64,000 nucleotides of DNA from Methylobacterium nodulans ORS 2060. Lineage in GTDB: Bacteria > Pseudomonadota > Alphaproteobacteria > Rhizobiales > Beijerinckiaceae. The position numbers were made by a program, and so were the translations under genes. This document shows positions 8,179-19,361 of the stretch, in pieces. The stretch covers positions 1,700,501 to 1,764,500 of the forward strand of contig NC_011894.1 of the NCBI RefSeq assembly GCF_000022085.1, read 5' to 3'. Positions within the stretch are counted from its first letter, which is position 1, and each line of letters starts with the position of its first letter. Below the pieces are notes generated by a model, which ran no database searches, had not been told where the DNA came from, and was given only the letters and a program-made list of their open reading frames with translations.

Positions 8179-9159
8179 TCAAGCCTGTTGGGGCTGATTT
8201 GGCGTCCAGAGGCGGTCCTGAGCGATGAGGCTGTTGGCCAGCACGGCGAGCTTGCGGGCCACGGCGATGATGGCGCACTTTGGCTTCTTGCCGTTGGCGA
8301 TCAGGCGTTCGTGGAAGGCTTTCAGGCCGGCGTTGTGGCGGGCGGCCGAGAGCGCCGCGAGGTAGAGGACGCGGCGCACGGGCGGGCGGCCGCCCCAGAT
8401 GACCCGCACGCCCTGGCGCGCGCCGGAATCGTCGGCGACCGGCGCCAGGCCCGCCAGCAGGCCGATCTGCCGGCTGCTGCAGGTGCCCAGCTCGGCCAGG
8501 CTGGCCACCAGGGTGGCCGCGATCGTGTCCCCGATCGAGGGGATCGAGACCAGGATGGCATGCCGCCGGGCCAGTCCGGGATCGGCCGCGATGAGCCGGC
8601 GGATCTCGCCGGCAAGGGCCTCGATGTCCGCGGCGATCCTGGCCAGACGGTCCTGGAACTGGCGGATCAGGAACGGGCTTGCGGCCGCGGCCAGCTGGTT
8701 CTTGAGGGCGGTTTGTTCGGCCACGGCGCTGTCGCGGGCCGCGACCAGTTCCTGGAGCGCTTCGAGCGCGTCCGAGGCCGGCGGGCGCTGCGGGGGGGCC
8801 ATCACCGCGGCAAACTGCGCCAGCACGCGGGCATCGAGCCGATCGGTCTTGGCCCAGATGCCTTGCGCCTTGGCGAACATGCGCACCCGAAACGGATCGA
8901 CGACGGCGACCGGCAGGCCCGAGGCATGCAGGCTGCGGCGGGTCTGGCGGTGCCACTTGCCGGTGGCCTCGACCACGACCAGCCCCAGAGCAAAGCGCCC
9001 AAGCCAGCGCTTGAGCTGCCGGATGCCGACCTCGGTATTGGCGAACCGCTGGGCTTGGCCGGAGGGGAGGACGTGGACGTCGAGCCAGCTCTTGCTGACG
9101 TCGATCCCCACGCTAGACTTGCCCGCGGTCTCTTGTTTGGACACTTCCTTGCCTTGCAT
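8179..9159 (-). CDS. IS110-family transposase (DEDD), copy 1
   Basis: 326-residue IS110 recombinase. The RuvC-like DEDD domain is complete: Asp20 (VGIDVSKSWLDV), Glu64 (VVVEATGKW), Asp106 and Asp109 (KTDRLDARVLA). The spacing is close to that of the characterised IS621 enzyme. The C-terminal Transposase_20 domain has IPSIGDTIAATLVASL and GLAPVADDSGARQG, whose Ser is the likely nucleophile, followed by GGRPPVRRVLY. The start at 9159 has GGGGAG ten bases upstream; an in-frame ATG at 9180 lacks a ribosome site. It differs from copy 2 by Phe for Leu in FLIRQFQDRL (codon 8656-8658). Probably active. Confidence 0.93.
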   Translation of the reverse strand: MQGKEVSKQETAGKSSVGIDVSKSWLDVHVLPSGQAQRFANTEVGIRQLKRWLGRFALGLVVVEATGKWHRQTRRSLHASGLPVAVVDPFRVRMFAKAQGIWAKTDRLDARVLAQFAAVMAPPQRPPASDALEALQELVAARDSAVAEQTALKNQLAAAASPFLIRQFQDRLARIAADIEALAGEIRRLIAADPGLARRHAILVSIPSIGDTIAATLVASLAELGTCSSRQIGLLAGLAPVADDSGARQGVRVIWGGRPPVRRVLYLAALSAARHNAGLKAFHERLIANGKKPKCAIIAVARKLAVLANSLIAQDRLWTPNQPQQA

Positions 9160-9342
9160 ACGGGACTTGCTCCCCAGCATCTGTTCAGGACAAGAGCCAG
9201 AGGGCGGCCGGATCCTGCTTTCCCACGGTGCCAATCCTAGAGGGAGATCGATCCCGGCCGCCCGCGTCGCGGCCGGTGGCCACCGGCCGCGACGCACCTC
9301 ACAGCTTGGTGCGCTGGTCGGCCCGTCAAACATGCAAGAGGG
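9160..9342 (-). ncRNA. candidate IS110 bridge RNA region, copy 1
   Basis: Non-coding left end upstream of the transposase gene. In the IS110 group with a long left end, this is where the bridge RNA guiding recombination is encoded. It contains a 32-base perfect palindrome at 9264-9295 centred on GGTGGCCACC. Structure and guide loops were not modelled, so the call rests on position and on the hairpin. Confidence 0.45.
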
Positions 9343-9498
9343 AGCGCGAAGGGGCGGAGAACCATCCGCCTGGGCAAGCCGACATCTGCATGGCCAAGCC
9401 ATCACCGGATGTCGGATGACTGGCCGGGCACCGGTCATGCCGCTAGGATGGTCCGCCTGTACGATCCCGCCGCAGGCTCACCCTCGAAGACATCACCC

Positions 9499-15619: not shown

Positions 15620-15943
15620 TCAGGCGCTCGTGGACTGGATCCAGCGCGAAAGGTCGCCCTTCGGCGCGGCCCCGACCTTCTGGCTGGCGAGCTTGCCGTC
15701 CTTGAAGATCATCAGGGTCGGAATCGAGCGGATCCCGTACTCCGAGGCGATGCCGGGATTCTCGTCCACGTTGACCTTGGCGATCTTCACGCGGCCCTGC
15801 ATCTCGCTCGAGATCTCTTCCAGCGCCGGGCCGATCGCCCGACAGGGGCCGCACCACTCGGCCCAGAAATCGACGACGACGGGCTCGGAAGCCTCCAGGA
15901 CGTCCTGCTTGAAGCTCGCGTCGGTCACCTTCACGGTTGCCAT
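15620..15943 (-). CDS. trxA: thioredoxin
   Basis: 107-residue thioredoxin 1, a cytoplasmic protein-disulphide reductase. The redox motif is WCGPC (Cys31 and Cys34), after VVVDFWAE. The cis-Pro is in [14 protein letters not shown], and VNVDENP and the C-terminal helix are normal. The start at 15943 gives MATVKVTD as in the family. It is monocistronic here and convergent with the beta-barrel gene, each with its own terminator. Confidence 0.97.
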
Positions 15944-16335
15944 CGCAAAACCCTTTCTCTCCGGGACGCGGCAGACCCGGCCTCATCCCGCGTGAGCGCA
16001 ACGTAGGAAGCCGCGAGAGCCCGATCAAGCGCGCACGGCCGCGCTTGCGCAAGGGGGCAGTGCGCCGCCACACACGGCATGTCAGGGCCCGCCACGCGTT
16101 CCGCCGCTGCAGTCGCGAGAGGCCCGCAGGGCGGGGATGTCTTGGCGCCGTCGCCGGAACGGGCCGGGCCATCAATCATGGAATGAATTGACGGTAAGAC
16201 CTGCAACCAACACGCTCTGGTTGATTTCCTGCGAGGATTCGTCGAGGTTCGGGCTGCGGCCGCTGCCCGTGTCGTCCGAACAGAGCATGCCGGTCGCGAC
16301 CTGCCCCGTCCGGCATGGTCGCCGGAGAGACCGCA
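15944..16335. other. gene-free interval upstream of trxA and the hybrid kinase
   Basis: 392 bases holding the divergent promoters of trxA and the histidine kinase gene. No convincing ORF, RNA gene or repeat was recognised. The stretch around 16170-16260 is less GC-rich than its surroundings and is the likeliest promoter region for the kinase. Confidence 0.4.
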
Positions 16336-17952
16336 ATGGTGGGCATTCTCGGGGAGCTGTCCGACGCCGGCAGCTCGTCTCCGGGCGGGACTGGCCTTCT
16401 CCCGCGTCTGGAGCTGATCTGGACGCAGGGGGCCGCCGACGCGGTCATCGGATTGTCCTGCGCCGCGATGGGTGTCGCGATCGCAATCGTCCTGGTGCGG
16501 CGCCGGGATCTGCCGTTCCGCGGCATTCTCTGGGCCTTCGCCGCCTTCATCCTGGGATGCGGGGCGACGCATGGGCTGGCCGGCTGGGCCCTGTGGGCGT
16601 CCCGGGACGGGCTTGAGGCGGATGTCAGGCTGGCGACCGCGCTCGCCGCGGTCGCCGCCGCCGTGGCGCTCTGGCGGGGCCTGCCCGCGGCGCTCGCGCT
16701 GCCCTCGCCGGGCGCTCTGCAGCAGGTCAGGCGGGAGCTGGGCGCCCGCATCCGCGAGCGCGACGCGGCCGAGAGGGCGAGCGCCGCCAAGAGCGCGTTC
16801 CTCGCCCGGGTCAGCCACGAGATCCGCAGCCCGCTCAACAGCATCCTCGGCTACACGGACCTGCTTCTCGGCGAGGCGAATCGCACCGCCGAGGAACGCC
16901 GCAAGCTCACCATCATCCAGGTCTCCGGATCCTCGCTTCTCGCGGTCGTGGACGACATCGTCGACTTCTCGCGAATCACCGCGGGCGAGGCCGCCCTGCG
17001 CTCCGAGCCCTTCGGCCTGCACGACCTCGTCGACACCACGCTCGCCATGGTCCGGCCTGCCGCCGAGAGCAAGGGGCTGCTTCTCTCCGTCGAGATCGCG
17101 CCCGACCTGCCGCGCCACCTGCGCGGCGACGAGGACCGGATCCGGCAGATCCTCCTCAACCTGCTCACCAACGCGATCAAGTTCACCGCGGCGGGATCGG
17201 TCTCGCTGACGCTGCGCCGCGAAGAGGTGGTGAGCGGCCGGGCTCGCATCACCGTCGCGGTCAAGGACACGGGCGCCGGCATCCCGCCCGACCGGCAGGC
17301 GACGCTGTTCCGGGGCGCCGACCCAGGCGAGGATGCGCATGTCCCCCGGATCGGCGGGTCGGGCCTGGGCCTGGTGATCTGCCGCAAGCTCGTCGCGCTC
17401 ATGGGGGGCGAGATCGGCTTCGAGAGCCACGAGGGCTACGGCTCGACCTTCTGGATCCGCCTCGACCTCGATCCGGTCGCCGCGCCGCCCGAGCTGCCGC
17501 CGCCTCGCCCGGAGCCGGACGAGATCCTCCCGGCCCCCCGCATCCTCCTCGTGGAGGACATTCCGGCGAACCAGGAGCTCGTGCGCCTGCTCCTGGAGGA
17601 GGAGGGTTACGCCGTCGATACCGCCTCGAACGGCGTCGAGGCCGTGGCGATGATCCGTTCGGCGCCCTACCGCCTCGTCCTGATGGACGTGCAGATGCCG
17701 ACGATGGACGGCCTGACCGCGACCCGCAGGATCCGGGAGATGGGAGGGCCCTCCGGGCGCATCCCGATCGTCGCCATGACCGGCAACATCCTGCCCCATC
17801 ACCTGGAGGCCTGCCGTGAGGCGGGCATGGACGACGTGATCGCCAAGCCCTTCAAACGGGCCGATCTCGCGGCCGTGATCGCCCACTGGACCCTGATCGA
17901 GGGCGACCGGCCGCGGCGGCCCGCCCGGGACGTCCTGTCTTCCCCGGCCTGA
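16336..17952 (+). CDS. hybrid histidine kinase with ethylene-receptor-like N-terminal membrane domain
   Basis: 538-residue membrane sensor. Residues 28-125 hold three hydrophobic segments. Without gaps they line up with the plant ETR1 ethylene-binding domain: Asp35 matches ETR1 Asp25, and FAAFILGCGATHGLAGW carries Cys75 and His79, equivalent to the Cu(I) ligands Cys65 and His69. ETR1 Tyr32, Ile35 and Pro36 are replaced (Cys, Met, Gly), so ethylene binding is uncertain. Then come the HisKA domain with His161 (ARVSHEIRSPLNS), HATPase motifs (LLNLLTNAIKF, VKDTGAGIP, GGSGLGLVICRKL), and a receiver with Asp451 (LVLMDVQMPTMDG). There is no GAF domain. ATG 16336 has GGAGAG six bases upstream; ATG 16315 is the alternative. 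Confidence 0.88.
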   Translation: MVGILGELSDAGSSSPGGTGLLPRLELIWTQGAADAVIGLSCAAMGVAIAIVLVRRRDLPFRGILWAFAAFILGCGATHGLAGWALWASRDGLEADVRLATALAAVAAAVALWRGLPAALALPSPGALQQVRRELGARIRERDAAERASAAKSAFLARVSHEIRSPLNSILGYTDLLLGEANRTAEERRKLTIIQVSGSSLLAVVDDIVDFSRITAGEAALRSEPFGLHDLVDTTLAMVRPAAESKGLLLSVEIAPDLPRHLRGDEDRIRQILLNLLTNAIKFTAAGSVSLTLRREEVVSGRARITVAVKDTGAGIPPDRQATLFRGADPGEDAHVPRIGGSGLGLVICRKLVALMGGEIGFESHEGYGSTFWIRLDLDPVAAPPELPPPRPEPDEILPAPRILLVEDIPANQELVRLLLEEEGYAVDTASNGVEAVAMIRSAPYRLVLMDVQMPTMDGLTATRRIREMGGPSGRIPIVAMTGNILPHHLEACREAGMDDVIAKPFKRADLAAVIAHWTLIEGDRPRRPARDVLSSPA

Positions 17953-18388: not shown

Positions 18389-19006
18389 ATGCCGCTCCAC
18401 GACCGGGACCTTGACCGGGCGCTCGCCGATATCGTGGCGATTCGCAGCCAGATCGCCCGCGACACCCATTTCCGCGGGCTCGGCCCGGCGACGATCGCGG
18501 CGACCGGCGGGCTCGCCCTCGCGGCCGCTGCCCTCCAGGCGGTCTGGTTCGCGCAGGGCACGGCGCTGGACTATTTCGTGTTCTGGATTGCCGTGGCGGC
18601 GCTCGCGGTGGCGCTGATCGGCGTCGAGGCGGTGACGCGCTCGCGGCGGCTGCATTCGGGGCTCGCCGACGCGATGATCGTCTCGGCGGTGGAGCAGTTC
18701 CTGCCCTCGCTCGCGGCCGGCGCCCTCGTGGCCCTGGTGCTCGCCCGCGTGACGCCCGACAGCCTCTGGCTGCTCCCGGGCCTCTGGCAGGTCTTCGTGA
18801 GCCTCGGGCTGTTCGCGGCGACGCGCACGCTGCCCCGTGCCGTGCAGCTCGCGGGGGCATGGTACCTGCTCGCGGGCCTGGCCGAGATTGCGCTCGCGGC
18901 CGAAACCCGGACCCTGTCGCCCTGGGCGATGGGCCTGCCCTTCGGCATCGGGCAGGTGCTGCTCGCCCTCATCCTCCATCTTTCCTGCCGGGACACCGAT
19001 GTCTGA
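18389..19006 (+). CDS. multi-pass membrane protein of the prenyltransferase module
   Basis: 205-residue integral membrane protein without a recognised function. A short charged N-terminus (LHDRDLDRALADIVAIRSQ) leads to about six hydrophobic segments, near residues 38-54, 58-78, 100-117, 125-140, 145-165 and 175-198. It overlaps the next gene (a winged-helix regulator) by eight bases, so the two are translationally coupled, and the prenyltransferase gene follows. An operator-like palindrome lies just upstream. A role in envelope or isoprenoid lipid metabolism is inferred from this context only. Confidence 0.75.
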   Translation: MPLHDRDLDRALADIVAIRSQIARDTHFRGLGPATIAATGGLALAAAALQAVWFAQGTALDYFVFWIAVAALAVALIGVEAVTRSRRLHSGLADAMIVSAVEQFLPSLAAGALVALVLARVTPDSLWLLPGLWQVFVSLGLFAATRTLPRAVQLAGAWYLLAGLAEIALAAETRTLSPWAMGLPFGIGQVLLALILHLSCRDTDV

Positions 19007-19361
19007 GCCGAGCGGACGCTTCTCCTACGAGGGCCTCGACCGGGTGATCCACGAGCGGGCGCGCCTGAGCGTGCTCACCTCGCTCGTCACCCACCCGGAC
19101 GGCCTCCTGTTCGGCGATCTGAAGCAGCTCTGCGGCCTGACCGACGGCAATCTCAGCCGGCACCTGCAGGTGCTGCAGGAGGCGGGCTTCGTCGAGGTCC
19201 GGAAGGGCTTCACCCAGAACCGCCCGCAGACGGTCTGCCGCCTGACCCCGAACGGCCGCCGCCGCTTCCTCGACTATCTCACGGTCCTCGAACAGGTGGT
19301 GCGCGACGCCGCCCAGGCCGTGGACGAGGCGCCGGCAGCCTACGGCTCCCTGCGGCCGTAA
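18999..19361 (+). CDS. winged-helix DNA-binding regulator (HTH_34 / MarR-like)
   Basis: 120-residue protein built as one winged-helix domain: [52 protein letters not shown] recognition helix region near residues 38-70, then a basic wing ([21 protein letters not shown]). The C-terminal helix probably dimerises. Such proteins are usually small repressors. ATG at 18999 overlaps the end of the membrane protein gene. Matching palindromes before the first gene (18330) and across the start of the third (19416) make it the likely repressor of the whole module. Confidence 0.85.

Follow-up and report, generated by a model that had tools for sequence, protein, structure and literature searches.

A hybrid histidine kinase of Methylobacterium nodulans with an ethylene-receptor-type membrane domain that is probably drifting away from ethylene

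We found that the window, the whole 64,000-nucleotide stretch of Methylobacterium nodulans ORS 2060 DNA analysed here, codes at 16336..17952 on the + strand for a hybrid histidine kinase of 538 aa, in which Pfam and the ORF give the order EBD-HisKA-HATPase-REC (EBD, ethylene-binding domain), and that this sensor has probably been moving away from ethylene. This view follows from the retention of the copper residues, the loss of other binding residues and a copper site that is largely lost in the closest relatives. We favor, with a probability of about 0.6, the reading that an ethylene-receptor domain has been freed from the ethylene constraint and would now serve mainly as the membrane and dimerization module of a working hybrid kinase. 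The protein itself displays the features of the family and the motifs expected of a working kinase and receiver, has ETR1 Tyr32, Ile35 and Pro36 replaced, and bears the mark of fast change in its membrane domain.

The ORF is a real gene, because a GGAGAG motif (16324-16329, +) lies 6 bases before the ATG at 16336, the GC content at third codon positions is 0.92 and four Pfam domains score over their cut-offs. Residues are numbered from Met1 at 16336, whereas the frame scanned with Pfam began seven codons earlier, at another ATG in phase with it. The first-pass annotation had assigned the N-terminus to the ethylene-binding family, and the profile search bore this out: ETR1_N (PF25487) matched residues 26-122 (16411..16701, +) with 86.9 bits against a curated cut-off of 27, and the E-value of 1.2e-24 excludes a chance match. 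Three helices are predicted in this membrane domain, at residues 21-55, 62-88 and 94-120 of a structure model of modest confidence (mean pLDDT 71.5) built from the window protein sequence alone; the hydropathy maxima lie around residues 32-56, 64-82 and 95-122. A PDB sequence search with residues 1-145 returned four chains at E-values up to 10, with no ethylene receptor among them.

The remainder of the protein comprises a HisKA domain (16786..16986, +; 4.8e-16), a HATPase_c domain (17125..17472, +; 5.7e-28) and a receiver (17542..17880, +; Response_reg, 2.5e-27), all above the Pfam cut-offs. Inspection recovered the H, N, G1 and G2 motifs of the kinase and the Asp, Thr and Lys of the receiver, with His161 and Asp451 as the phospho-acceptors, and neither the sequence nor the Pfam scan revealed an output domain in the hybrid kinase. 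The absence of a GAF domain between the membrane domain and the kinase, which had been remarked upon before, was likewise seen in the Pfam scan of the protein, and two of the ordinary kinases scanned from its genus (here, the kinship group of the genome set searched) also gave no GAF match. A search of plasmid proteins (E-values up to 1e-80) recovered two records, neither of which matched outside the half with the kinase and receiver.

ETR1_N matches were found in 45 of the 111 genomes of the genus and, in genome draws that overlap one another, in 64/397 from the order, 28/385 from the class, 29/398 from the phylum and 148/213 from the genus g78. An ordinary domain, scoring at least 111 bits, is present in 42 of the 111 genomes of the genus, and 41 of these 42 were retrieved. 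The window domain is the sole ETR1_N match in its own genome (8.84 Mb, 8 contigs). It groups on the tree with the ordinary domains of the genus, from which it differs in its binding site: the 39 distinct ordinary domains examined have all seven binding residues, the window domain four. The two ordinary kinases that were scanned combine ETR1_N with kinase domains (in one of them HisKA fell below the cut-off) and gave no match to a receiver, which the window protein has. A separate contig scan with residues 1-175 yielded 80 loci (L097-L176), in none of which the profile search found an ETR1_N domain.

The seven-residue list of Wang et al. 2006 reportedly comprises ETR1 positions 25, 32, 35, 36, 62, 65 and 69. 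According to the available part of one report, ETR1 needs seven residues for ethylene binding and AzoEtr1 of Azospirillum brasilense carries all seven (PMC11819568). The accessible text of a modelling study names I35, P36, I62, C65 and H69 as essential and has the copper remain at Cys65 with His69, the contact with Asp25 being infrequent (PMC6586836). The equivalence of Asp35, Cys75 and His79 to ETR1 Asp25, Cys65 and His69 agrees with that printed for AzoEtr1 in the part of PMC11819568 at hand. These three residues, which the first-pass annotation had picked out, are indeed present in the window protein, Asp35 at 16438..16440 (+) and the others, together with Ile72 (ETR1 Ile62) and the CGATH motif, within 16549..16572 (+); the corresponding columns hold Asp, Cys and His in 39/39 distinct ordinary domains of the genus. 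The replacement of Tyr32, Ile35 and Pro36 was equally evident, with Cys42, Met45 and Gly46 (16459..16473, +) standing against Tyr, Ile and Pro in the same 39 domains. The window domain thus keeps 4/7 ethylene-binding residues, namely Asp35, Ile72, Cys75 and His79, and falls short of the seven needed by a functional ethylene receptor. Beyond these seven, the Lys91 column, Lys in the ordinary domains, is occupied by Arg98 (16627..16629, +), and the column of ETR1 Ser98 is Ala. Compared with plant ETR1, therefore, the window protein shares the profile match, Asp25, Ile62, Cys65 and His69, and departs from it at the Tyr32, Ile35, Pro36, Ser98 and Lys91 columns and in having no GAF match. Judged by helical spacing, Cys42 and Met45 would share one face of helix 1 with Asp35.

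We then compared 111 distinct domains, a non-random sample of the best matches followed by hand-picked divergent ones, which leaves out most matches from the class, phylum and g78 draws. With the window counted, the Asp/Cys/His triad is intact in 67 of the 111, and among these 67, Tyr32 is found in 65, Ile35 in 66 and Pro36 in 65, the exceptions being the window domain and L222. Both Tyr32 and Pro36 are kept in 3/44 of the domains with a broken triad. In 65 columns, 80% or more of the 39 ordinary domains agree; the window domain keeps 39 of these columns and its ortholog (described below) 29; at the seven binding residues the figures are four and one. At the window domain's background rate, Asp, Cys and His would all survive with a probability of 0.21. 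The retention of the triad by the window domain thus fits chance; an intact triad can be reconciled with the loss of one residue after another, and selection on copper need not be invoked. The conserved columns are kept at 12/21 in helix 2 versus 5/16 in helix 1, a non-significant difference (Fisher p 0.18).

A whole-protein search in the 110 other genomes of the genus, with 13 candidates scored per genome, identified two orthologs among the matches listed: one in G049 (69% identity over residues 22-537; 712 bits) and one in G050 (68%; 710 bits). The next match listed has 386 bits, and the remaining ones are mainly to the kinase and receiver. The two orthologs are near-copies of each other with identical membrane domains and hence amount to one independent comparison. 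In the ortholog, Asp25 is replaced by Ala, Tyr32 by Phe, Ile35 by Leu, Pro36 by Ala, Ile62 by Leu and His69 by Gln, with Cys65 kept. Both ortholog genomes additionally carry an ordinary receptor, and the window domain is the sole one in its genome; the window protein may therefore keep a role that the orthologs could lose.

The locus is also shared. Going by gene names read from the sequence and Pfam matches, the order common to the ortholog is folC, an outer-membrane-type ORF, trxA, the kinase, a 205-aa ORF, a winged-helix gene and uppS, with the thioredoxin gene (15620..15943, -) as the conserved left neighbor and the 205-aa ORF, which has no Pfam match, and the HTH_34 winged-helix ORF (18389..19361, +) as the conserved right neighbors. 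Identities to the ortholog's neighbors are 69% for the outer-membrane-type ORF, 84-91% for uppS, the 205-aa ORF and the winged helix, 95% for folC and 98% for trxA. The winged-helix gene was matched in 31/61 genomes, and in all 30 winged-helix loci retrieved, the pair it forms with the 205-aa ORF lies upstream of uppS. In 28 of these 30 loci, all but those of the window and G050, no kinase match was found in the available flank, which extends some 0.9 kb beyond the 205-aa ORF on its upstream side. The earlier remark that the neighbors give no output hint still applies, as none of the 12 neighboring ORFs scanned offers one. Farther away, the window contains an IS110-family transposase gene at 8179-9438 (-; Pfam DEDD_Tnp_IS110, 2e-22).

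A quick tree of 114 domains and 104 columns, which leaves 58 of its 111 inner branches open and comes with a long-branch warning, the ortholog's branch being among the longer ones, places the window and ortholog domains inside a set of 24 rows (SH-aLRT 99), 20 of which are ordinary domains of that genus. The pairing of the window and ortholog domains with each other is unsupported (SH-aLRT 6). Given this placement, it is probable that an ordinary receptor of the genus itself supplied the sensor domain, and that the fusion to a hybrid kinase took place in an ancestor of the few species concerned.

The domains of the protein have changed at different rates. Between the window protein and the G049 ortholog, identity is 41/97 in the membrane domain, 161/223 in HisKA plus HATPase and 105/113 in the receiver. 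The respective dN/dS values by the Nei-Gojobori method are 0.74, 0.36 and 0.09, with dS of 0.75, 0.51 and 0.36, so the membrane domain leads in synonymous divergence as well; being pairwise, the ratios make relaxation and positive selection look alike. The codon bootstrap gave 95% intervals of 0.45-1.10 for the membrane domain and 0.25-0.51 for the kinase, and the membrane-domain value was at or below that of the kinase in 3/300 resamples. Since its interval reaches well below 1, some constraint remains on the window membrane domain. Among six ordinary receptors, the reverse of the window pattern was observed, the membrane domain being more identical than the rest in 15/15 pairs, and a second set of six showed membrane-domain dN/dS of 0.13-0.42 over 15 pairs. 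Seven hybrids of g78, which we take to be Bradyrhizobium, have membrane domains less identical than the rest in 21/21 pairs, with dN/dS of 0.09-0.34. Low identity alone is thus no proof of decay, because these hybrids show it together with low dN/dS; what sets the window protein apart is its high membrane-domain dN/dS.

The g78 hybrids resemble the window protein in having an altered site and, in the one scanned (L214), the same EBD-HisKA-HATPase-REC order. All 15 retrieved (L077-L080, L207-L217) have His69 replaced by Arg, Tyr32 by Phe and Pro36 by Ala, with Asp25, Cys65 and Lys91 kept. Unlike the window domain, they combine Arg at His69 with low membrane-domain dN/dS (in the seven compared) and constitute, with L081 and L082, a separate 17-row clade (SH-aLRT 100). 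Orthology with them was rejected on account of this separate clade and a visibly different kinase sequence. It is plausible that the g78 Arg69 clade represents a stable repurposed site. In g553, the domain occurs in 4/8 genomes, two of them with ordinary and two with altered versions. The altered pair (L261, L262) keeps Asp, Cys and His and has Phe32, Ala36 and other changes, one of the two also Ile62->Leu. Between its two members, identity is 62% over the domain and 65% over the remainder, compared to 73% and 62% for the ordinary pair; a state with the triad kept and Tyr and Pro lost can thus outlast some divergence. Elsewhere, three domains of family f28 (L085-L087) have Cys at the Tyr32 column and keep Cys65, with Glu in place of Asp25 and Arg in place of His69. 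ETR1_N is also the sole Pfam domain of a 159-aa frame (L224:1842-2318, +), and it occurs in frames of 142, 153 and 195 aa in the class-level draw; these short ORFs are possibly stand-alone ethylene-binding-type proteins.

Several other readings deserve consideration. The domain might have been repurposed as a Cu(I) or Cu-dependent sensor, in which Cys42, Met45, Cys75 and His79 constitute a sulphur-rich site sensing copper, redox or another small ligand. The intact triad, the nature of the residues at the Tyr32 and Ile35 columns and the two g553 species that keep Asp/Cys/His with Phe32 and Ala36 all speak for this, but the ortholog has Phe and Leu at the Cys42 and Met45 columns and no longer possesses Asp25 and His69, triad retention fits chance, and a copper gene was recognized in 0/12 neighboring ORFs scanned, leaving us to regard it as unlikely. 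Cys42 and Met45 as ligands conserved in the lineage were rejected given the ortholog's Phe and Leu. More doubtful is a stronger version, in which the EBD was rebuilt into a Cu(I) site of Cys42, Met45, Cys75, His79 and Asp35 in a copper- or redox-sensing kinase, as one of several independent bacterial conversions beside the g78 Arg69 clade and the g553 Phe32/Ala36 pair. The proposal in the first-pass annotation that the protein could sense a gas or hormone, its ligand having changed, found no support in the selection evidence, namely the ortholog's losses, the dN/dS of 0.74 versus 0.36 and the triad probability of about 0.2. Its overall interpretation holds for the assignment to the family and for the retained copper ligands; a changed ligand is less likely, the recurrence of a kept triad with Tyr and Pro lost in the two g553 species speaking in its favor.

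That the protein is still an ethylene receptor, of lower affinity and the only one of its genome, would fit its being the sole ETR1_N match there and the kept copper ligands and Asp25. We consider this quite improbable in view of the replacement of 3/7 ETR1 ethylene-binding residues, the Ala at the Ser98 column and the presence of Tyr32 and of Pro36 each in 65/67 domains with an intact triad. Pure decay toward a sensorless or dead gene, for its part, would explain the high membrane-domain dN/dS; it seems hardly any more credible, as the kinase and above all the receiver (dN/dS 0.09) are conserved, and the catalytic motifs that we searched for were found. A domain released from ethylene and mainly serving a working kinase remains our preferred reading, against which the retention of Asp, Ile62, Cys and His along with the CGATH motif has to be set.

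Under this preferred reading, the three helices would anchor and dimerize the kinase. The Cu(I) ligands Cys65 and His69 are present along with Asp25, as judged from the sequence; Cys75 and His79 may still hold Cu(I), so that copper binding by the window domain is possible. Ethylene would not be bound at receptor affinity by the membrane domain, and ethylene sensing by the protein appears unlikely. His161 would phosphorylate Asp451, from which the phosphate could pass to a separate HPt protein and on to a regulator; nine HPt matches were found in the genome, one of them in a short 155-aa frame.

As far as the available part of the report goes, AzoEtr1 is similar in having an N-terminal EBD on a bacterial kinase, with the same numbers Asp35, Cys75 and His79; unlike the window protein, it has the full set of seven residues and a PAS domain, its response regulator is encoded by a gene of its own, and its binding of ethylene has been measured (PMC11819568). 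According to the accessible text of PMC7700396, domains of this kind are found in many proteobacteria and are linked to a variety of outputs, and according to that of PMC13012798, the aspartate of the binding site varies naturally among plant and bacterial receptor-like proteins. Among the open-access papers listed by our searches, no title or abstract opening dealt with this protein or with degraded EBDs of bacteria. Bacterial proteins with an EBD tend to be taken as putative ethylene receptors. However, some members have a lost or changed site and an intact kinase, and the presence of the domain alone is therefore no proof of ethylene sensing. The domain set assembled here supplies natural variants for telling copper-holding residues from those of the ethylene pocket.
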